A stretch of DNA of 64,000 bases from a virus: IMG/VR virus record IMGVR_UViG_3300037475_000122, positions 1 through 64,000 of that record. The stretch is one strand, 5' to 3'. Of this stretch, positions 17,124-44,799 are shown one piece after another. Both the position numbers and the translations under genes were made by a program. Below the pieces are notes generated by a model. The model worked only from the letters and a program-made list of their open reading frames with translations, made no database searches and had not been told where the DNA came from. Each line of letters opens with the position of its first letter. Positions within the stretch are counted from its first letter, which is position 1.

Positions 17124-17858
17124 ATGAAACGCTTCCTCGCCATCCTCTCCCTTCTCCTCCTCACGGGTTGCAGTTCCCTCATCCCGAAGCCCGTTGAGTT
17201 TTTTCAGGACAAGGTCCACAAGATGCCGACTCAAAAGGCGTCCGAGAAGGAGACGCAGCGGCAGGCCGCGCAGCGAGCAGCGGAAAAGGCCCGGCAAGTG
17301 TTGGACGCCGCCCTGATTGAGGATGCATCCACTGCCGTGGTCAACCCGGCGAAAGAGGTCACTCAGTTGACAGATTCAGTCTCCCGCAGCCTCGGCCCGC
17401 CGGTCTCTCCGTCGTCCCTAACCTCCGAGGACTTGTCTCGAAAGCTCGACAAGGCAATCGCGAAGCTGAATCAGCGCCTCGACGAATTCAAAGCGGACAA
17501 CGACGAGAACGCCGGGAAGAAAATCGAAGGCTCCGGGGCCTTCAGTGTCCCTTACTTTTTCTACATCGCGATTATCGGATTCGTCGTCTTCGTAATTTTT
17601 CTCGTGCTGAAGACGTTCGTTCATGTGGCGGCTGCGGGCAACCCCGCTGTCGGAATGGGTCTTCAGGCCGTCCAACTCGGAGGCCGAGGCGTTGCCGCGC
17701 TGGCTAAAGAAGTGATTCACGGCGGCGAAATTTTCAAAGAAAAAATCGCGGCGGAGATGCCGGAATTCCGCGAGAAGATTGAGGCGCTGTTCTCTTCCGC
17801 GCACAAGGAAGCGCAGTCCCCGGATACTCAGGCGGCGGTTAAGAAACTCCTTTCATAA
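17124..17858 (+). CDS. lipoprotein with internal membrane helix, spanin-like layout
   Basis: 244 residues. The N-terminal signal MKRFLAILSLLLLTGCSS ends in a lipobox (LTGC, Cys 16). Residues about 40-145 are charged and helical, suited to a periplasmic coiled coil. Residues about 148-172 (PYFFYIAIIGFVVFVIFLVLK) are a clear membrane helix, followed by about 75 residues ending in another helix. A lipid anchor in the outer membrane plus a helix in the inner membrane is the plan of unimolecular spanins, which fuse the two membranes at lysis. The tail after the helix is longer than in known examples, so this is a hypothesis. It may also be a virion-associated lipoprotein. Confidence 0.5.
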   Translation: MKRFLAILSLLLLTGCSSLIPKPVEFFQDKVHKMPTQKASEKETQRQAAQRAAEKARQVLDAALIEDASTAVVNPAKEVTQLTDSVSRSLGPPVSPSSLTSEDLSRKLDKAIAKLNQRLDEFKADNDENAGKKIEGSGAFSVPYFFYIAIIGFVVFVIFLVLKTFVHVAAAGNPAVGMGLQAVQLGGRGVAALAKEVIHGGEIFKEKIAAEMPEFREKIEALFSSAHKEAQSPDTQAAVKKLLS

Positions 17859-17859
17859 T

Positions 17860-19002
17860 ATGTCTTGCTCCTCTTGTAACGGTGCGAACCAAGCCGAGTG
17901 CGAGCGCAATTGCTGCGCGGGCGGTCGGAACAATGGGTCCATTCAGGGCTGCACCCCCTGCCAAACGTGTCCCCCGGCGAGCGCCGATTGCGAATCGCTC
18001 CCGAGCGCGTTGGAGAATTTCACCCAGCAGTTTTTCGGCGAGGTTCAGAAGACCGTGGTCAACGGCGTGGTGACGTGGACGCTGCCCTGCAATCTCGGCG
18101 TTGGTCTCCCCGGCAACCCTCGCGCGAATCAGGAGGGTTTGGCCTGCTACTTCCTCCGGCTCTTCCGTGACGGAATCATCGGACTCACCGGCCCCAAAGG
18201 CGACACGGGCGACGCAGGCGCGGACGGCCACAATGCCTACACCCAGACGACTACGGCGTTCACCGCGCCCACGGTTGGCACCCCGCTCGTCGAGTTCAAC
18301 GTCATCCCCGGCCCGCTGCTCTCCGTCGGCCAAACGATTTTCATCCCGCGTATCGGCTGGCTGGAAATCACCAACATTTTTCAGAACACGACGGTCTTTG
18401 CGTCGCTGCTTCAACTCGTCTCGAATCCCATCGCCACGTCCCCGCCCGGCGCATTGGTTTTGCCTACGGGTCCACGCGGTCTGCCCATCAAAGGCGACAC
18501 GGGTCCGCAAGGTGCGAAGGGCGACACGGGCGCAACGGGCGCAACCGGGGCAACGGGCGCAACGGGCGCAACGGGCGCAACCGGCCCGGCGGGTGCCACG
18601 GCTACGAACGCGAACGCGGAAGTCGTCGGAGGCGCGACGGATTACACGATGACGGCGGTTTACGCCAAGGTCGATTTCGGCGCGGCGGACCTCGAAGTGA
18701 CGCTCCCCACGGCGGGAAAATATCTCCTCCTCGTCAACATCTCCGGCGTGAACAACTCCGGCGCGACGCGCGAGTGGGACTTCAAACTTTTTGACAACAC
18801 GGCTGCGACTGACGTGCCGAACAGCGAGGTCCCTCGCTCCGTGGTCGTCAGCACTCTCGCGACTCAGGTGACCCTGATGTCGATTTACAACGCCCCGGTG
18901 GACAACACACTGATTCAAGTCTTCGCGGCAACGAGCAACGCAACGGCGACTCAAACGCTTTTCTATACGTGGTCAAAAATCATTTACATCAAGCTTCAGT
19001 AA
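17860..19002 (+). CDS. collagen-like virion fibre with Cys-rich N-terminus
   Basis: 380 residues. The first 45 residues contain about ten cysteines (CSSC, CERNCC, CTPCQTC and others). A short Gly-x-y run (GLTGPKGDTGDAGADG, about 108-123) and a longer one (about 205-247, including six perfect Gly-Ala-Thr triplets) are collagen-like. The C-terminal 125 residues are a beta-sandwich-like head (DFGAADLEVTLPTAGKYLLLVNISG). This is the plan of bacterial and phage collagen-like fibres ending in a TNF/C1q-type head. ATG 17860 is used because it follows the previous stop closely. It is probably a receptor-binding or appendage fibre. Confidence 0.75.
   Translation: MSCSSCNGANQAECERNCCAGGRNNGSIQGCTPCQTCPPASADCESLPSALENFTQQFFGEVQKTVVNGVVTWTLPCNLGVGLPGNPRANQEGLACYFLRLFRDGIIGLTGPKGDTGDAGADGHNAYTQTTTAFTAPTVGTPLVEFNVIPGPLLSVGQTIFIPRIGWLEITNIFQNTTVFASLLQLVSNPIATSPPGALVLPTGPRGLPIKGDTGPQGAKGDTGATGATGATGATGATGATGPAGATATNANAEVVGGATDYTMTAVYAKVDFGAADLEVTLPTAGKYLLLVNISGVNNSGATREWDFKLFDNTAATDVPNSEVPRSVVVSTLATQVTLMSIYNAPVDNTLIQVFAATSNATATQTLFYTWSKIIYIKLQ
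18529..18582 (+). repeat. six 9-base collagen triplet repeats
   Basis: Six consecutive copies of GGCGCAACG or one-base variants (GGGGCAACG, GGCGCAACC), encoding Gly-Ala-Thr each time. The near identity at DNA level means the number of copies could change by slippage, altering fibre length. Confidence 0.85.
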
Positions 19003-19211: not shown

Positions 19212-20384
19212 ATGGCAAAAGTTTCTGATTACCCGGAAGAGCTAGGCGCAAACCCCGAGGGGTTTTTGTTCATGGCTGTTCGGCAACCGGACGGCAAGTT
19301 CAAGACGAAGAAAATCGCGCCTGACCGCGTGGGCGCGCAAGGCCCGGTCGGTCCCGGCGGCGCAACTGGCCCCACGGGTGCGACGGGCGGAGTTGGCCCG
19401 GCCGGTCCTGCCGGTCCCGCAGGCCCTACCGGCGCGACGGGCTCTCAGGGTCCCGCAGGCACGAACGGCACCAACGGAACGAACGGCACCAACGGCACCA
19501 ACGGAACGAACGGCACGAACGCGACGGTCGTCGGCGAGATTCAAAACTACGACGGCATCGTGTATGAGAATTTCGATGACTACTCCGCTGGCGCAATCGC
19601 CACTCTCGACAAGGGCCTCGGCTGGGATGACAACGGCATTTGCACCGGCGCGACCATCGTGACGAAGACCAAGGCCGGGAATGGGACGTCTCCCACGGAG
19701 AAGCGATTGTCCATCGACAACGGGGAGTATATCCGGAAAATGCCATGGGGCGACGGATGGAATCGCCTGCAAATTTTCATTCAGTTCCGCGTGGGCAGCG
19801 TGGCCGCAGCGTTCACGGGCCTCGGGTATCTCGGCATCTGTTCCGGGCAGACCAACACGGCCGGGACCGCAGCGACGGACAATTTCGTCGGCCTCGTTTT
19901 CAACAAGGGGGTCAACGGCTGGACATTTGCAAACGGCACCCGCGTGGACTACACGGGATTTGCGTCGGGTCAAACTTTCATTACTCGCCGGGGCAACACC
20001 GATTCGAGTTGGGGCGGCACCGCCGGGTCCGACGGGCGCAAGTATTCCGTCACCGAGGGCTACACGTCCATTCTGATGCTGGACCTACAGCGCCCGGTTT
20101 TTGCGAACGACGCTTCGTCCGTGAATTACGACGGCTCCGTCCGCAGCACCGATTTGACTCACGTCGAATTTTCTTCGGCGAAGACGGCCCTTTGGAACTT
20201 GCTCCACAATGACGACCTCGTTACCAGCGGTGCGGCGGTTCGCGTCATCGGAAGCGGCGTGGAAACCCCTCCGTCGGTCGCGTTCGACCAATCGACGGGC
20301 AAGCTCGATACACTGAACTTCGTCTGGCCCGTGGCCGGGAAGCAGTTTGAAATCGCCGCCATCGGCGTCCACAAACTCTATTGA
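19212..20384 (+). CDS. second collagen-like virion fibre
   Basis: 390 residues. The N-terminal 40 residues (VSDYPEELGANPEGFLFMAVRQPDGKFKTKKI) look like a virion attachment domain. Residues about 43-105 are uninterrupted Gly-x-y: first Pro/Ala/Thr-rich triplets (GPTGATG, GPAGPAG), then seven Gly-Thr-Asn triplets. The C-terminal 280 residues form a lectin-like beta domain: NYDGIVYENFDDYSAG, repeated Trp and Gly, and a late DTLNFVWPVAGKQFEI. This suggests a trimeric stalk with a carbohydrate-binding head. It follows the first collagen-like gene by about 200 bases. Confidence 0.75.
   Translation: MAKVSDYPEELGANPEGFLFMAVRQPDGKFKTKKIAPDRVGAQGPVGPGGATGPTGATGGVGPAGPAGPAGPTGATGSQGPAGTNGTNGTNGTNGTNGTNGTNATVVGEIQNYDGIVYENFDDYSAGAIATLDKGLGWDDNGICTGATIVTKTKAGNGTSPTEKRLSIDNGEYIRKMPWGDGWNRLQIFIQFRVGSVAAAFTGLGYLGICSGQTNTAGTAATDNFVGLVFNKGVNGWTFANGTRVDYTGFASGQTFITRRGNTDSSWGGTAGSDGRKYSVTEGYTSILMLDLQRPVFANDASSVNYDGSVRSTDLTHVEFSSAKTALWNLLHNDDLVTSGAAVRVIGSGVETPPSVAFDQSTGKLDTLNFVWPVAGKQFEIAAIGVHKLY
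19458..19520 (+). repeat. seven Gly-Thr-Asn codon triplet repeats
   Basis: Seven tandem 9-base units (GGC/GGA ACG/ACC AAC), mostly alternating between two forms. They encode the lower part of the second collagen-like stalk and provide asparagines at every third position. Confidence 0.85.
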
Positions 20385-24073: not shown

Positions 24074-25141
24074 ATGGCCAATCTGTTCAAGACCAATCTG
24101 AAAATCACGGCGGCTCAGCTTCCGCCCGACTTCTCCGGCACCCCGGCCGAGTTCCTGCGGGCCATCGTTGAACGGCTGGACATTTTCTCCCCTGTCGGCA
24201 CCAATTTCTTCGTCGTTGGCGACGTGGAACCCCCTACTAATCAAGGACCTTGGTTGAAGGACGGCAAGACGTGGTATGTCTTCGACGAGGACGAGGGGAA
24301 ATACGTCCCGGCCGACATCTCCGATTCGACGCTGACTCTCTTCACGGTCTCCGACGCTGAGCCCGAGCCCCCGGTTGCCGGGGAGGACGCTCTCATCTGG
24401 CTTCGGACCAAAAGCAACCGCGTCCTCGGCTGGTATTTCTGGGATGGCGAAGAGTGGCGACCCGAGGGCCATACACCCCCGAGCGGCCCCACGGCTGACC
24501 GCCCTTCGGACCCCGGCGACCTCGAACAGTTTTTCGACACGACCTGCGGGTGCCTGATTCATTGGGAGCGCGGCGCGTGGCGGACGGTCTCCGGCACTCC
24601 GGGCGACGTCAAGTTTGTGACGGCTCCGCTTTTGGCGGACGCCATCGCGTTCAACCCCGGCTGGGAATACCTCGGGGAGAACAGCCAAGATTTTCGCGGC
24701 AAGGTCCTCGGCGTGGCGACGAAAGACCCCGGGGCGACTCCGGCGATTTCGTATTCGACGGCGTCCGGCATCACGGCACGCGCGCAAGGTTCGCTCGCGG
24801 GCGCGGAAACGGTCGTCCTCGCGGACCTCGACATTCCGCAGCATTCCCACTTGGTTGGCGCGGTGAACGCACTCGGCAACAACCACAACGCAAACTTTTA
24901 TCGGGTTGACAACAACCAAGCCTTCGTCGCTCCCGGCTCCGGCCCGCCCAATTACGAGAAGACGACCGGAGCGAATTTCGACTCCGCGTCCGGCGCTCTC
25001 CCGGCGGCAACTGACGGCTGCGCGTTGGTGACTTCGACGCAGCTTGCCAAGGCCATCGCACCGTCGCCTTACACGTCCGATGCCGCCGCGCATCAGAACA
25101 TGCAGCCCACGGTTTTCCTCTGGGCGCTCCAAAAAGTTTAA
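24074..25141 (+). CDS. tail-collar-like protein
   Basis: 355 residues. The N-terminal 170 residues contain two related Trp-rich segments, GDVEPPTNQGPWLKDGKTWYVFDEDEGKY and GEDALIWLRTKSNRVLGWYFWDGEEWRP, which look like duplicated beta units. The C-terminal half carries features of phage tail-collar and microcystin-dependent-protein domains: FNPGWEYLGENSQDFRGKVLGVATKD, LADLDIPQHSHLVG and the final QPTVFLWALQKV. It is probably part of the short tail or fibre base. Confidence 0.65.
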   Translation: MANLFKTNLKITAAQLPPDFSGTPAEFLRAIVERLDIFSPVGTNFFVVGDVEPPTNQGPWLKDGKTWYVFDEDEGKYVPADISDSTLTLFTVSDAEPEPPVAGEDALIWLRTKSNRVLGWYFWDGEEWRPEGHTPPSGPTADRPSDPGDLEQFFDTTCGCLIHWERGAWRTVSGTPGDVKFVTAPLLADAIAFNPGWEYLGENSQDFRGKVLGVATKDPGATPAISYSTASGITARAQGSLAGAETVVLADLDIPQHSHLVGAVNALGNNHNANFYRVDNNQAFVAPGSGPPNYEKTTGANFDSASGALPAATDGCALVTSTQLAKAIAPSPYTSDAAAHQNMQPTVFLWALQKV

Positions 25142-25737
25142 TGAACCGGCTCCCGTTCATCGTTGTTGACGATTTCGTCGCGGACCCTGTCGCGGCGGCG
25201 GCAACTTTGCGCGCAGCGGACTTTGCAGACCGCAAAGGGCCGGACGGTGAAGTTTACAAACGCGTCGCTCCTCTTCCGCAGGAATTGTTCAAGGCGGAAA
25301 TTGAAAAGGCCCTCGGGTTTGCCATCCGTCCCAACTACTCGATTGCCCGGCTGAACTACGCGGGCGAGAATCCGAACAACGCGGTCCATGCCGACAGCGG
25401 CTATGATGAGTTTGCGTGCATCGTCTATCTGACCGAAGACAAGTTTTGCAGCGGCGGGACGGCGTTCTGGAAGCACAAGATTCTCGGCTTCGACTCGATG
25501 CCGGACGAGACTCAGGTCCGCGCCGTAGGAAAAAATCCCGGGCAGGTGATGAAGCGGCTCAGCGCGGACTGGAACAACATCAGCGCATGGACTCAAACGG
25601 CGCTCGCGGAGATGAAGTTCAACCGAGCGATTTTTTTCAAGTGCAAATCGTTTCATTCGCGGTTCCCGTTCGAGGCGTTCGGGGATAGCCCGGAAAACGG
25701 CCGTTTGATTTTCGTCAGCTTTTTCAACCGCGCATGA
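25141..25737 (+). CDS. DUF6445-like 2-oxoglutarate/Fe(II) dioxygenase-fold protein
   Basis: 198 residues. The iron-binding triad is visible: His-Ala-Asp at residues 83-85 (AVHADSGYDEF) and a distal His 172 in KSFHSRFPFEAFG. An Arg about 16 residues later (Arg 188) could bind 2-oxoglutarate. The spacing and the strand CIVYLTED fit a prolyl-4-hydroxylase-like jelly roll. Such enzymes hydroxylate proteins or small molecules. It sits in the fibre/tail operon, 5 kb after two collagen-like genes, with an acetyltransferase gene overlapping it by ATGA. Substrate unknown. Confidence 0.65.
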   Translation: MNRLPFIVVDDFVADPVAAAATLRAADFADRKGPDGEVYKRVAPLPQELFKAEIEKALGFAIRPNYSIARLNYAGENPNNAVHADSGYDEFACIVYLTEDKFCSGGTAFWKHKILGFDSMPDETQVRAVGKNPGQVMKRLSADWNNISAWTQTALAEMKFNRAIFFKCKSFHSRFPFEAFGDSPENGRLIFVSFFNRA

Positions 25738-38863: not shown

Positions 38864-38978
38864 ATTCTTTTTTCGCGGCCCGGCGCTCCGCCTTCGACTG
38901 GACACGCTTGCCAAAAGGTCGCAGGTGTTTTGCCCACTCCTTCGGCTTGACGAGCGTGTCTTTTCGCTTGTGGCTCAT
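38850..38978 (-). CDS. 42-residue basic protein
   Basis: Very basic (MSHKRKDTLVKPKEWAK, then RVQSKAERRAAKKEF), probably one or two helices that bind nucleic acid. The start is set by the ATGA overlap with the cupin-like gene, rather than a longer frame further upstream that would cover that gene. Function unknown. Confidence 0.5.
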   Translation of the reverse strand: MSHKRKDTLVKPKEWAKHLRPFGKRVQSKAERRAAKKEFDKD

Positions 38979-39406
38979 ATCCGGATTCCGTAGTGGTTCG
39001 CCTCTTCCCGGAAGGGGGTTGATTTTTGAGCCACGATTTTTCGTCCGTGCGTCAAGGTGACTTCGCCGTCGTGCCGGTCTTCTTTCCACGTCTTCGCCCA
39101 CGGGCCTCGGAAGGTCAGGACCCATGACGTCCCCTGACTGCGGACCTTGTGATAGGTATCGCGGCCGGTCCAAATCGGCTTCAGGCTGGGGCGATACCGG
39201 GTGCGTCCGCCGTGGCGGATGTCCTCATCGAGCAAGCCCGTCAACAGCCACGAAAAGCAGTTGAACGCGTGCGAGTGGTAGGCGCTCCGGGTCCCGTTCG
39301 AGAATCGCAGCAAGGCGACGCTGAAAACGGATTTCCATTCGATGAGCCAGAACGCGGTGACGTTGGACTCGGGTCCGCCGTCTTTGGATTTTGAGAATAA
39401 TTTCAT
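38975..39406 (-). CDS. cupin-fold-like phage protein, 143 residues
   Basis: The core has RFSNGTRSAYHSHAFNCFSWLLTG and TYHKVRSQGTSWVLTFRGPW: a His-x-His pair in the first block, a later His, and the Gly-turn-strand rhythm of a cupin barrel. This pattern recurs in uncharacterised proteins of many phages. Metal binding is likely; the reaction is unknown. It is preceded by a C/A-rich leader (CAACCCCAACCC) before the ATG. Confidence 0.5.
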   Translation of the reverse strand: MKLFSKSKDGGPESNVTAFWLIEWKSVFSVALLRFSNGTRSAYHSHAFNCFSWLLTGLLDEDIRHGGRTRYRPSLKPIWTGRDTYHKVRSQGTSWVLTFRGPWAKTWKEDRHDGEVTLTHGRKIVAQKSTPFREEANHYGIRI

Positions 39407-39424: not shown

Positions 39425-40801
39425 TTACACCGGGGCGAAGGGCGCGGGCATGTCGTAGGGCTCGCACAAGCCGACGTTGGCAAACTTCAGTTGAATGTCA
39501 TACGTCGCGGTCTTGCCGAACTTCGGATGCACGAGGAAAAAGGTTTGCGTGGGGTCCACGGGGGAGAAACCACCGGCCAGCCCGTAGCCGTCGAGCCCGG
39601 GGAAGCCGCCGTTGACGATGAACGAGCCGCGCGCGTGCGGGAGCACAATCGAGCGGTGAAGGTGCCCGACGAGGAAGTAGTGCGGCGAAGCTTCCATGGC
39701 TTTTCCGAAAAGCTGCGCGGTGCTCGACACCATCCGGCCGACGGCATGGTTCGGAATCCCGAGGGCCTTGTCCCCGCCCTTCAGGTGGTCACCGTGCGAC
39801 AGATGGAACTTGAATCCCTGAACGTCGAACAGCGCGAACGGCTGGCGGTCGAGGTGCCATTGAACTTGCGGGATTCCTTGCGTCAGCGCCTCAATGTAGG
39901 CGTAAAGGAAATGGTCGAGGTTGCTGTATCGGTTCTCCGTTGGCATCTTGTGTTGGTGGGACCATCGGGGGTGATTCCCAACGCAGCAGTAAACGCGAAT
40001 CTTCGGGACGAGCGCGGAGAGGTTGCGGAGAAATTGCGCGATGGCGTGCCCGGCTCCGTAAAACTGTTGGAACAACGTCGAGTGTTGCCCGGCCTCAACG
40101 CCGTGATTCAGCGCGCCGTGAATCATATCGCCGCCGAGGCAAACGACGAACTCGTCGAGCGGCGTGGTCGTGTGGTCGGTCGAGATGGACCGCACCGCGT
40201 TCTCGTAGTATTTCAGACGGGCGAGGAACGTTCGGAAATCGTATCCGCCGTAGCCGAGGGTTTGGTCACCGTCGATTTTCTGGCCGACGTGCGTATCAGT
40301 GAGCATGATGAGCCCAGACTGCGCGCGGTTGCCGGGCCGGGGCTGGTTGGACGGCACGAACGGGACCGGCTGATAGCTCAGCGGGGCGAGGTCCTTTGCC
40401 AGCCCGACAAGCTGCTCGACCACGCTACCGTCACGAAGGGCGCGGTCATACTTCGCCTCAAGTTGTTTGTATTGGCGCTTCCAATACTCGCTGCTCGTCG
40501 CCTCGCGGTCCTGCTCGAACGTGGACGGCTCCACGGGAGGACGCGGAGGGCCAGAAGGACCTTGAGGGCCGCGAACTCCGCCGGGACCGGGAAGTCCGGG
40601 ACCTCCGGGGCAACCGGGCGCACCCATCGGCCCGGGGGGACCGGGAATCGAAGCTATAAAGCGCGCCTCTGCGGCAAGACGACGCCGAATTCCGCTCACT
40701 GCGGCCCGACTCTTTCCAGTGCGTAAGGCCACGTCAACATTTCGGATGCTCAGGTCTTTGACCAAGTCAAGTTGGTCGGGGGTCCAAGTCTTGTGCTTCA
40801 T
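39425..40801 (-). CDS. metallophosphoesterase with HTH and collagen-like insertion
   Basis: 458 residues in three parts. Residues 1-45 look like a DNA-binding HTH (TPDQLDLVKDLSIRNVDVALRTGKSRAAVSGIRRR). Residues 54-86 are eleven uninterrupted Gly-x-y triplets rich in Pro. About 95-135 is a charged coiled coil. From about 160 on is a calcineurin-like phosphoesterase with the full motif set: DTH (169-171), GGD (223-225), GNH (275-277), HGD (336-338) and GHLH (379-382). The catalytic part may act as a DNA nuclease/phosphodiesterase of the SbcD/Mre11 type. A collagen-like trimer joining DNA-binding and catalytic parts is unusual for an intracellular enzyme. Overlaps the next gene (ATGA). Confidence 0.8.
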   Translation of the reverse strand: MKHKTWTPDQLDLVKDLSIRNVDVALRTGKSRAAVSGIRRRLAAEARFIASIPGPPGPMGAPGCPGGPGLPGPGGVRGPQGPSGPPRPPVEPSTFEQDREATSSEYWKRQYKQLEAKYDRALRDGSVVEQLVGLAKDLAPLSYQPVPFVPSNQPRPGNRAQSGLIMLTDTHVGQKIDGDQTLGYGGYDFRTFLARLKYYENAVRSISTDHTTTPLDEFVVCLGGDMIHGALNHGVEAGQHSTLFQQFYGAGHAIAQFLRNLSALVPKIRVYCCVGNHPRWSHQHKMPTENRYSNLDHFLYAYIEALTQGIPQVQWHLDRQPFALFDVQGFKFHLSHGDHLKGGDKALGIPNHAVGRMVSSTAQLFGKAMEASPHYFLVGHLHRSIVLPHARGSFIVNGGFPGLDGYGLAGGFSPVDPTQTFFLVHPKFGKTATYDIQLKFANVGLCEPYDMPAPFAPV

Positions 40802-41358
40802 TTCTTTTTGCGAGTTTTAGGCGGCTGTTCGGTTTGTGTCGAGGAAGGGTCGATGGAAATTTGCTCTTTGGCTTCGCGTTTAAACGCAGCGTCGTAATCG
40901 TCGAATGCGGCCTTCGGAGTCGCGCCCCGGCCGATGAGCCCGCATCCATGCACGCTGATGTCGCCCGTGTAGGCGATGAACGAGCCATCCCCGAGGCACG
41001 CAATCTGCGGCTTCATGAAATAGGACGGCTTCGAGACGACTTGCGCGCCCTCGGTTTGCGCCTTCAGGAATTCGTATTGCTGCTCGTAGTTTTTCTGAAG
41101 CGTCGCAAGGACTTTGCTCTCAGCGTCGATGCTCCATCGGGAATCCTCATCGAGAATTCTGTCCAGCCGCGCGCAAGTCTTGATGAGCGTCGTCGTAACG
41201 GCAACGGCCGCTTCGCCTTCGAGCCGGGCAGGCGTGGAGACGGAATCGTTTGCAGGCCGGAAAAAAGTGTCGAGCGTGGCGAGGGCCGAAAGCAGGTCTC
41301 GAATCTGTTGACTCGTCACGACCCCGGGCGAGGGCAAGTTGAATTGTGGTGCGCTCAT
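40798..41358 (-). CDS. unrecognised replication-region protein, 186 residues
   Basis: The N-terminal two thirds are helical (SQQIRDLLSALATLDTFF, LQKNYEQQYEFLKAQ). The last third (KPQIACLGDGSFIAYTGDISVHGCGLIGRGATPKAAFDDYDAAFKRE) has the strand-strand-helix look of HicB-like antitoxin domains, though with extra loops. A basic KTRKKK tail ends it. Coupled to both neighbours by ATGA. It may bind DNA or a partner of the resolvase. Low certainty. Confidence 0.5.
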   Translation of the reverse strand: MSAPQFNLPSPGVVTSQQIRDLLSALATLDTFFRPANDSVSTPARLEGEAAVAVTTTLIKTCARLDRILDEDSRWSIDAESKVLATLQKNYEQQYEFLKAQTEGAQVVSKPSYFMKPQIACLGDGSFIAYTGDISVHGCGLIGRGATPKAAFDDYDAAFKREAKEQISIDPSSTQTEQPPKTRKKK

Positions 41359-41876
41359 TTAAAGGTCTGTTTTGCCCAATTCAGGAGGTGAACCGCATCG
41401 ACCGCATTGTCGTCCAAAATCTTATTCCTTAAGGTATCCTTTACGCCGTCTTTGTCAAGTATGTATCTCGGGTCCATCGTTAAAGCCCGGGCCATTTTGT
41501 CTTTGTCGGCGCTCCCGCTGCCCGTGGCAAACGCTTTCAGCTTGCCAGTAGAAAGACAGTCGATGTTTACACCCTGTTGACACCAAATCGCCGCGCGCCA
41601 CGTCGCCCAGAGGTGCGCTTGCATCCGGGATTTGACGAACTCGACATCCTCAAAAACAATCCAGTCGATATTGGGGAACGAGGAGCGGAATTGCTTGATG
41701 AAAATCAACAGGCGCACGAAACGCGGGTCCTGTCGCCGGTCCATTCGCTTTTCGATGGCTTCGACAATCTGCGCGCGGCTGGCGAGACTCCACGTCCCTG
41801 CGTCGTCGTTGGGGAGCATCGCATGATGCATCGCCCAGCCGGTTTTTGTCCCGAGGTCGAGCGCCAGAATGTTCAT
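41355..41876 (-). CDS. RuvC-like Holliday junction resolvase
   Basis: 173 residues. An RNase H-like core with the four acidic residues of RuvC: Asp 7 (LALDLGTKTGWA), Glu 76 (IVFEDVEF), and Asp 156 and Asp 160 (DDNAVDAVHLL). Length and motif spacing match phage RuvC-type resolvases, which cut branched DNA before packaging. It lies between gene 40798 and the sigma factor, overlapping each by ATGA. Confidence 0.88.
   Translation of the reverse strand: MNILALDLGTKTGWAMHHAMLPNDDAGTWSLASRAQIVEAIEKRMDRRQDPRFVRLLIFIKQFRSSFPNIDWIVFEDVEFVKSRMQAHLWATWRAAIWCQQGVNIDCLSTGKLKAFATGSGSADKDKMARALTMDPRYILDKDGVKDTLRNKILDDNAVDAVHLLNWAKQTFK
41431..41458 (-). promoter_or_regulatory. possible internal promoter, TTGACA-N16-TACCTT
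   Basis: On the - strand: TTGACA at 41458-41453, a 16-base spacer, TACCTT at 41436-41431, inside the resolvase gene. Boxes and spacing are identical to the 61630 promoter. It could drive 40798-41358 and the genes below, but it is 70 bases from that start, so the evidence is only the match. Confidence 0.35.
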
Positions 41877-42574
41877 TGAGTCTTGCGAATGCCCCGGCGT
41901 TCGAGCCGAGTCTTCAGCGCAGCCAGAATCCCCGCGTGAATCTGCCGGACGCGTTCGCGGCTCAGCTTCGGAGTCAGAATTTTTCCAATCTCCGCGAGGT
42001 TAAAGCCTTCGACGTAATGCAGACGGATGATTTCGCGGTCCCGGGGCGAGAGCGTTTCCTCGCACGCGGCCAGTTCACCCTTCAGGAAGCCGTCATGGTC
42101 GTTCTGCTCGACCGTGGATTGCTCAACGAGTTGGTCCGGGACTCGATTGCCCGCGCGGTGCTCACCGTCGAACGGGACGCCGGGAATCCATTTGTCGATG
42201 GGAATCTCGATGGGCGGCTCGCCATGCTTGAAGTCCACGGGCGAGCGGGCGCGCCAGCAACGGGCGATTGCCGCGCGGACGTAGGGAATCAGGAAAGCAC
42301 GGAATGGGAAGCCGAGTTCAGGATTGAAACGGCCGATGGCAATCATCAGCGCCTCATTTGCCGCGCTCGTCGTCTCATCGACTGGCAACCGTCCGCCGGA
42401 GAACCGCTGGCCTAGCTTCAGCGTGTAGAGCAGATGGCGAGTGATGAAAGTTTCCCGCGCGGCGTCATCGTTCGCGAGCATTTTGCGCGCGAGGCTGAGT
42501 TCTTCTTCCGCCGTCAGAGGCGGGAAGCGCAAGTCTTCCTCGACCTTGTAGTATCGTCCTTCGTTTTCGCTCAT
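41873..42574 (-). CDS. phage sigma-70 family factor
   Basis: 233 residues with two sigma domains. Region 2 is at about 40-108 (FITRHLLYTLKLGQRFSGG, NEALMIAIGRFNPELGFPFRAFLIPYVRAAIARCWR). Region 4 is at about 172-225 (TLSPRDREIIRLHYVEGFNLAEIGKIL, SRERVRQIHAGILAALKTRL) and is an HTH that reads the -35 box. Region 1.1 and the 3.1 linker are short. It redirects host RNA polymerase. Start ATG 42574 overlaps the helicase stop; the frame is open further upstream but that part is antisense-like in composition. It is a candidate reader of the AACCTT promoters. Confidence 0.85.
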   Translation of the reverse strand: MSENEGRYYKVEEDLRFPPLTAEEELSLARKMLANDDAARETFITRHLLYTLKLGQRFSGGRLPVDETTSAANEALMIAIGRFNPELGFPFRAFLIPYVRAAIARCWRARSPVDFKHGEPPIEIPIDKWIPGVPFDGEHRAGNRVPDQLVEQSTVEQNDHDGFLKGELAACEETLSPRDREIIRLHYVEGFNLAEIGKILTPKLSRERVRQIHAGILAALKTRLERRGIRKTQ

Positions 42575-44799
42575 TTTTGGAATTGGGAATTTTCCGTTTG
42601 GGGGACCGGAGGGGCGGTCGGCTTCAGAAAACGGTCTTCGCATTCGATTGTGAACACGCGGCCGTTGTCGCCTTCCGCAAGAGTCATTTTGAACATCCCT
42701 TTTTCGTGGAGTTGGAGCAGGGTCCGGGGGATGAAGTCCGGCTTGTAGCCGCGCAGCACCTCGGCGAATCCGGGCGAGGACAGCATCGAAATCTTCAAGT
42801 CGGTCGCAGAGCCGACCCACGCCTTTGCGCCCCGGGCAACGTCGGTGAAGTATTCGCCGAGCCACTTGCAAAGGATTTCGGAGAAGGCCGACACCGCGCT
42901 CGAAAGATTCGACGTGCGCTGAAGTGTCGTGTCGCAGTAAGGGGTCACACCGAACCGAGGGTCCGCGCCGTCGAGACAATGCGCGGGAGTCTGCCAGTCG
43001 AGAAGCCAGCGCGCGAACGCCGGGAGTTCCCGCTTCAGCATCTCTCTCATTTCCGTCTGTCCGAGAAATTTGATAGTGCGCGTCGCAGCGCGGAACAGCA
43101 TGAGCTTTTCCAAGATGCTGCCGTCAAGATTAGGAATCTGGTCAATAGAAACAGGGTCATCATTGCAGGTAATCACGATGCGGCCTTGCCATGGAACCAT
43201 GACGGCCTTGCGGAACTTCTCGTTGGCCCGATGCTCCCGGGAGGCAATGGCCCGCTTCACGCCTTCACTGAAAAGCCGTTTCATGGTCGCATTCGACGCC
43301 ATGCTTCCGTCATCAATGACCCAGAGCCCGGCGTCAAAAAGTTCGGAGTTGAAATTGTCGGTCTGCGTCAGGTAGGCGTTGGCCTCAGCGCATCCGCCGA
43401 CAAGCCCGCCGATGATTCCGCGATTGAGGAAGGTCTTGCCGACGTTCACCGGCCCGGCGATGATGACGCCATGTCCGCTGTGCGGGTCGCGGAGGTGACA
43501 TGACCGATAGAAGTATTGCAACCACGCGAGGAATCGTTCAAGCGGCGTCCTGTCCGGCGTGAAAAACTGCTCAAGGAACATTGAGACGAACGGGAAATCC
43601 CCGGACGCGCCCCAAGTGCCGCCGGTCAACTTCGGCTTCACCGCTTCGATGCGGTGCGTGTTCAAAATCATCTTGCCGTTGTGATTGAAAACGCCGTGGG
43701 GGTAAAACGCGCACGACGCGGCCCCGGCGACATACTGATGAAGGTCGATGAACGCGAGGGCCTTTTCGACCATCGAAACGCCTTCCTTGGGTTTCTTATC
43801 CGAGAGCCCGTGATTGACGACAAGCTGCCGCCGGAGCGTCGTCGGCTCCATGCAGCGCACCGAGTTGTCAGGCGCGGGCATGAAGTAGGCGCGGCCGTCG
43901 AAATAGATGTCTTTGACCGCCTTGCCGAGGTGCTCGTCCTCAGACCGCTCGACGAACTCCGCGCCGATGAGGTCGGCCCACGGGTAAAACGGTTTCGGAG
44001 CGTGCGCGGAGAAAGTGTAAAGCCCGGTCTCGCGAACGATGGCGGACTTGGGGGACGCTGAGCCGTCAACCCAGAACGTCGGCCCCTGCGCGCCGACAAC
44101 GAACTCCCCGGGCCACTCGTGAAAGCGGGGAAATTTCTTCCGCATCTCCTCGGCGACGCGGTCCATCGACACGGCGACCTTGCCGAGTTCCTTGGACGTC
44201 CAATCGAATTTTTCGGAGATGCGAAGAACGAATCCGCGAAGCTGCGCCATGGGGACGAGCACCTTAGACAACTGAGTCCAGCGGCATCCGTTCGTGAAGT
44301 ATTTTTCGGGAGTGATGAGTGCCGGTTTGTCGAGCCCGGGGAGACGGTCCACGGGGATTAGCGCCGAAATCTCCTTCAGCACATTGATTGCGAACCGGCG
44401 GGACGGGAAGCGCAGCGGCTCCTCAAAAAGCCAGATGAGACGGCCGTTCCCGGAGAGCGTTTGCTCAAACCAATTCGGTTTGATGTCGCCCATGATTTTC
44501 ATCGCGGCGTAAACGTCCTCAAGGGTCGTCTTGGCGTCGTAATCGACCGCCAGCCCGTGCATGAAAATCGGAGGGTTGGACGCCTCGTCGTTGTTCGTCC
44601 CGCCGTGTAAACGCAGATTGGCTTGGACCCCCTCGAAAAGGGAATAGACGTGGAAGACCGTTTCCGGGTTGTTAATCCATGCGTCGCGAGCCGCCTTGTC
44701 TGTCCGGCACTCCTCGGGCACTAACTCGAACTCCGTGAACTCCCACGGCTTCACGTCCGAGAAGATTTCGACGGAAGAAAGGTTGCGAAGGTAAAACAT
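42571..44799 (-). CDS. primase-helicase with superfamily 3-like ATPase
   Basis: 742 residues. The N-terminal 220 residues resemble an archaeo-eukaryotic primase: FMHGLAVDYDAKT gives the hDhD metal motif and LSGNGRLIWLFEE the strand-turn with a basic residue. The ATPase starts near residue 445: Walker A GPVNVGKT (about 447-454), Walker B LWVIDDGS (about 490) and sensor RIVITCNDD (about 545). The final 150 residues are helical DNA-binding. It unwinds and primes phage DNA. The start at ATG 44799 is preferred because the promoter ends 13 bases upstream; an in-frame TTG five codons earlier is possible. Confidence 0.82.
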   Translation of the reverse strand: MFYLRNLSSVEIFSDVKPWEFTEFELVPEECRTDKAARDAWINNPETVFHVYSLFEGVQANLRLHGGTNNDEASNPPIFMHGLAVDYDAKTTLEDVYAAMKIMGDIKPNWFEQTLSGNGRLIWLFEEPLRFPSRRFAINVLKEISALIPVDRLPGLDKPALITPEKYFTNGCRWTQLSKVLVPMAQLRGFVLRISEKFDWTSKELGKVAVSMDRVAEEMRKKFPRFHEWPGEFVVGAQGPTFWVDGSASPKSAIVRETGLYTFSAHAPKPFYPWADLIGAEFVERSEDEHLGKAVKDIYFDGRAYFMPAPDNSVRCMEPTTLRRQLVVNHGLSDKKPKEGVSMVEKALAFIDLHQYVAGAASCAFYPHGVFNHNGKMILNTHRIEAVKPKLTGGTWGASGDFPFVSMFLEQFFTPDRTPLERFLAWLQYFYRSCHLRDPHSGHGVIIAGPVNVGKTFLNRGIIGGLVGGCAEANAYLTQTDNFNSELFDAGLWVIDDGSMASNATMKRLFSEGVKRAIASREHRANEKFRKAVMVPWQGRIVITCNDDPVSIDQIPNLDGSILEKLMLFRAATRTIKFLGQTEMREMLKRELPAFARWLLDWQTPAHCLDGADPRFGVTPYCDTTLQRTSNLSSAVSAFSEILCKWLGEYFTDVARGAKAWVGSATDLKISMLSSPGFAEVLRGYKPDFIPRTLLQLHEKGMFKMTLAEGDNGRVFTIECEDRFLKPTAPPVPQTENSQFQK

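Follow-up and report, generated by a model that had tools for sequence, protein, structure and literature searches.

Collagen-like sequence in phages is so far known from proteins of the tail fibres and the capsid. Viral collagens have on average Pro at 9.3% of the Y positions of their Gly-x-y triplets (PMC3368898, Table 4), and a melting temperature of 42 °C is given for a non-hydroxylated collagen fragment from an EHEC prophage together with its trimerisation domain at the C-terminus, which makes an unmodified phage triple helix feasible, though that collagen is much longer than the tract described here (PMC3368898). In the open-licence literature, searched by title and abstract, no description of a phage metallophosphoesterase with collagen was found. 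Enzymes of the Mre11 type are dimers, and to our knowledge neither the Mre11/SbcD nor the DP1 fold is trimeric. GcrA regulates the cell cycle of the host and has no phosphoesterase domain.

The window is the whole stretch of DNA analysed, 64,000 nucleotides of a 74,142 bp IMG/VR virus record. It carries a metallophosphoesterase (MPE) gene with an ATG start, P0001, encoding a protein of 458 aa (WIN) in which a collagen-like tract stands between a helix-turn-helix (HTH) domain and a long helix followed by the catalytic domain. This tract is real and unusual, in a variant built of known parts and not in a new class of enzyme. The relevant features are the following:

17779–19002 and 19212–20384, plus strand: two collagen-bearing tail-fibre-like ORFs, over the Pfam Collagen cut-off
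39425–40801, minus strand: MPE gene P0001, phrog_284 "exonuclease" family (profile match, E 1.8e-35)
39482–40324, minus strand: calcineurin-like catalytic domain, residues about 160–440 (model and metal-site motifs)
40388–40519, minus strand: long amphipathic helix, probable coiled coil, residues 95–138 (AlphaFold and alignment of relatives)
40544–40642, minus strand: collagen-like tract of 11 Gly-x-y triplets, residues 54–86 (read from the sequence, and Pfam Collagen)
40649–40780, minus strand: HTH, weakly GcrA-like, residues about 8–51 (AlphaFold helices 8–15, 21–28 and 32–51)
40798–41358, minus strand: 186-aa ORF, function unassigned, sharing 4 bases with the start of the MPE gene
41355–41876, minus strand: RuvC-like Holliday junction resolvase, phrog_159 (E 1.3e-15)
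41873–42979, minus strand: sigma-70-type RNA polymerase sigma factor, start probably internal to the ORF

The sigma-70 factor, the RuvC-like resolvase and the 186-aa ORF lead, in this order, into the MPE gene. The same cluster, recognised by position and sequence resemblance without a family search, is present in the related contig L039, and the RuvC-like gene, an ORF of the 186-aa type and the MPE follow the window order in L001, as far as read and by the same two signs, with the 186-aa ORF at the equivalent position in both. This DNA-metabolism cluster, together with the location of the fibre-like collagen genes on the other strand at 17.8–20.4 kb, supports that P0001 is a non-virion, DNA-related enzyme. 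Its PHROG annotation, fold and neighbourhood indicate that it is probably a DNA-processing enzyme, and a nuclease activity is suggested by its family and fold. On the 3' side of the MPE gene, an ORF at 38975–39406 (minus strand) matches the cysteine dioxygenase family phrog_4786 (E 2.6e-17), which is odd at such a position.

The phrog_284 match covers residues 117–438 of the protein, and Pfam Metallophos scores 17.5 bits on it, slightly under the cut-off of 21.5. All the metal-site motifs are present (D169xH171, G224D225, G275N276H277, H336 and G379H380xH382); among 34 aligned sequences D169, H171, D225, N276, H277, H336 and H382 are invariant and H380 is kept in at least 90%. The complete calcineurin-like domain proposed in the first-pass annotation is borne out. 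Among solved structures this domain is closest in fold to archaeal PolD DP1, at a Z of about 16, followed by Mre11/SbcD (Z 13–14; 3tho_B at 14.2 and 7dog_B at 13.5), and some of its viral neighbours are phage proteins that bear the name DNA polymerase II small subunit.

A single-chain AlphaFold model built on the alignment of relatives (mean pLDDT 80.6) predicts a three-helix HTH at residues 8–51 with a pLDDT of about 94, in agreement with the HTH-like N-terminus noticed earlier from the sequence. The family profile for residues 4–54 weakly matches the GcrA structures 5yiu and 7ye1 (E 0.02–0.04); Pfam GcrA gave no match in P0001 itself at E up to 1, and weak Pfam GcrA/HTH_38 matches were obtained in the relatives L001 and L004. 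After the tract, where a coiled coil had been expected, there is indeed a long coiled-coil-like helix at 95–138, in which W107, Y111, L114, Y118 and A121 follow a 3–4 spacing and are hydrophobic in 82–100% of the relatives, a pattern compatible with a coiled coil, whatever its oligomeric order. Residues 52–94, between the HTH and this helix, are disordered in the model; such disorder of the tract in a single chain is expected with or without a triple helix, since a triple helix needs more than one chain.

The count of eleven uninterrupted triplets at residues 54–86 in the first-pass annotation, which did not give the strand, was exact: GPP GPM GAP GCP GGP GLP GPG GVR GPQ GPS GPP. Pro is found at X in 6/11 triplets and at Y also in 6/11 (55%). 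When the entire protein sequence was shuffled 20,000 times, the longest Gly-x-y run was 7, against the 11 observed, and given the Gly content of the tract itself the probability of 11 Gly in register is about 1e-6. Pfam Collagen aligns to residues 54–85 (E 0.0046) with 17.1 bits, below the family cut-off of 27.2 because the tract is short; in a genome scan it scores 20.3 bits. The reading frame through the tract is genuine, as homologues match both the HTH side and the helix and catalytic side, and this homology spanning both sides rules out a frame artefact or a wrong strand.

At the DNA level, the Gly codons are invariant at their first two bases in 11/11 units, while the remaining seven bases of each nine-base unit depart from consensus at about 39% of sites, a distribution with a probability of about 2e-5 under uniform drift over the 11 units. 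These data show that Gly has been preserved, either in the MPE gene or in the source gene of the tract, two possibilities between which the codon test does not discriminate. The tandem repeat signal in the tract DNA amounts to just 2.6 copies of a 9-nt unit (85%), which together with the pattern of codon changes speaks against fresh tandem slippage, and this origin was rejected. A protein search of phages with the tract alone, with the low-complexity filter on, gave no match.

Searches of viral and genome contigs produced about 44 distinct related contigs (33–71% identity, some of them near-duplicates), plus about 36 distant relatives. L028 and L065 end before the linker and are unreadable there. 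Of those that can be read here, L039 alone has Gly-x-y repeats between HTH and helix; its MPE (L039:3001–4467) carries them at the same junction as the window protein: five triplets, GPPGPQGPPGAPGEM, with Pro at Y in 3/5, followed by about 45 unrelated residues across which the model of this protein is of low confidence. These extra residues have no relatives in public phages, and among five genomes they were found only in L039 itself. L013, the closest relative of the window protein with 71% identity, has a plain 24-residue linker without repeats. The linker measures 6–42 aa in relatives, where it is often Pro/Ala-rich, 62 aa in the window protein and 96 aa in L039. No collagen-like tract was found in the about 36 distant relatives, where runs of five Gly-x-y correspond to the catalytic GGDG loop and not to collagen.

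As about 43 of the 44 related contigs are without the tract or cut before it, with the 71% identical L013 among those without, the tract is dispensable for the enzyme family; it does not belong to the enzyme in general but is an unusual spacer specific to a lineage. The earlier idea of a collagen segment inside a non-virion, probably DNA-processing enzyme therefore holds for the window protein and fails as a general property of the family. Homologues lacking the repeats had been named as evidence against it, and this is largely what was found for the general claim, with L039 as the sole exception; likewise, the HTH-collagen-phosphoesterase architecture for which a search had been proposed was recovered from the contigs in L039 and in none of the other readable relatives. 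In L005 / L036 (Meiothermus granaticius contig) a KfrA-like N-terminus (weak Pfam match) replaces the HTH and GDKH stands for GHLH in motif V, and this MPE relative is apparently prophage-borne. A collagen-like ORF adjoining the MPE in L034 was discarded as a reading of a simple repeat without independent support. In L112 (G014:C1, around 24845–25233) near-perfect GMPGSP/GVPGSP repeats make up most of a 224-aa ORF, and either strand there can be read as collagen-like.

In the phylogenetic tree WIN and L013 group together with 94–98% bootstrap, apart from L039, a topology that would fit two gains of the tract. AU tests rejected neither a WIN+L039 group (p 0.12) nor a WIN+L013+L039 group (p 0.37), so that one gain followed by one or more losses is possible, and a strict claim of two independent gains is not made. 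Collagen-like ORFs, mostly fibre-like, abound in the whole phage group, and one genome often carries several. Collagen-like matches were present in 21/22 related records, 17 of them over the Pfam cut-off, and possible collagen donors are thus plentiful. An origin of the tract by copying of fibre genes of this phage was rejected by composition: the Y positions of both fibre-like collagens of the window are Thr- and Asn-rich, with Thr abundant and no Pro, vs 6/11 Pro in the tract. With the published viral average of 9.3%, at least 6/11 Pro at Y has a probability of about 2e-4. In their Y-Pro content the tracts of the window and L039 MPEs resemble each other more than they resemble the fibres, a likeness that could reflect either a common origin or the need of short helices for a high imino content.

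The explanation that we propose, to which we give even chances, is that of a phrog_284 MPE in which an HTH with some likeness to GcrA is followed by a Pro-rich linker of variable length, an amphipathic and probably oligomerising helix and a PolD-DP1/Mre11-like metal-dependent phosphodiesterase domain, and in which the linker was lengthened by an imino-rich collagen-like spacer. The HTH would dock the enzyme on DNA and helix 95–138 would bring the chains together, and the tract could fold into a short triple helix, at most about 10 nm long for its 33 residues with a rise of about 2.9 Å, or alternatively adopt the form of an equally extended polyproline-II rod. The spacer would then hold the DNA-binding heads off the catalytic domains, in such a way that reach or geometry would be altered and the chemistry unchanged. 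We infer here the nuclease activity, the oligomeric state, the triple-helix folding and the benefit of the spacer. The phrog_284 match, the conserved metal ligands, the nearest folds, the gene cluster, the linker lengths, the constant Gly codons, the high Pro content and the conserved spacing in the adjacent helix count for this explanation, as does the second collagen-like insert at the HTH-helix junction of L039; that nearly all relatives lack a tract and that Mre11-type enzymes are dimers counts against it. A spacer role is favoured, in which a genuine triple helix and an extended linker of one chain are about equally likely, and a short triple-helical spacer is plausible. The GGP and GPG triplets and the scarcity of charged residues are expected to weaken a triple helix, and the five triplets of L039 are probably too few for stability alone. 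For these two lineages, the window phage and L039, that a cytoplasmic phage nuclease uses a true short collagen triple helix, arisen or kept in both, as a rigid spacer between HTH and catalytic domain seems to us rather unlikely.

A serious competitor, though one that we hold to be somewhat doubtful, is a flexible or polyproline-II linker merely resembling collagen, in an enzyme that would be a dimer or a monomer with no triple helix. It would suit a naturally variable site that is often Pro/Ala-rich in relatives, the related folds of Mre11/SbcD and DP1, which are not known to be trimeric, the mere five triplets of L039 and the disorder of residues 52–94 in the single-chain model, though the latter is expected either way. 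By contrast, a perfect Gly spacing over 11 triplets (P about 1e-6) with varied Gly codons exceeds what a Pro/Gly-rich linker needs. That the tract is a neutral and functionless recent acquisition, brought by recombination from a collagen gene into a linker that tolerates it, we consider improbable. Its sporadic distribution (2 of about 44), the about 45 unrelated residues that L039 also acquired after its collagen and the presence of several collagen-bearing, mostly fibre-like ORFs as possible donors in nearly all related phages speak for such an origin, and an already evolved collagen fragment, imported and idle since, would leave an identical codon pattern. However, the composition is unlike that of the phage's own collagens (fibre Y-Pro 0, Thr-rich), so that the donor was probably not local, and no donor DNA was found among public phages, the best match having an E of 4.

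Found twice at one junction in one phage group, a collagen-like stretch within an enzyme of DNA metabolism offers a small natural test of an intracellular triple-helix spacer, and it also bears on the transfer of protein modules by phages between virion and replication genes. If true, the triple-helix reading would place a functioning collagen helix in the cytoplasm of bacteria, as part of an enzyme.

Compared with known systems, the closest are the phrog_284 "exonuclease" MPEs and their IMG/VR relatives (L013, L014, L022, L035, L039 and others), which share HTH, linker, amphipathic helix and catalytic domain at 33–71% identity, with the same gene order where examined (L001, L039), and differ in having linkers of 6–42 aa without Gly-x-y repeats, L039 excepted. 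PolD DP1 and Mre11/SbcD share the catalytic fold over about 200–255 residues (DALI-scale Z 13–16) and the metal-site motifs, whereas identity is only 11–14% and the matches are confined to the catalytic part, with the HTH and the tract outside. The likeness to the N-terminal DNA-binding domain of GcrA is a weak family-profile match over residues 4–54. On the collagen side, the EPclA fibres of EHEC prophages (PMC3368898), where the trimeric tract adjoins a trimeric coiled coil, and the SPP1 capsid protein gp12 (PMC6316719), also trimeric, have Gly-x-y tracts as well, but these are virion fibre or capsid proteins, whereas the window MPE is a predicted enzyme in a DNA-metabolism cluster, and Pro occupies 7.4% of the Y positions in EPclPs (PMC3368898) vs 55% in the window tract.
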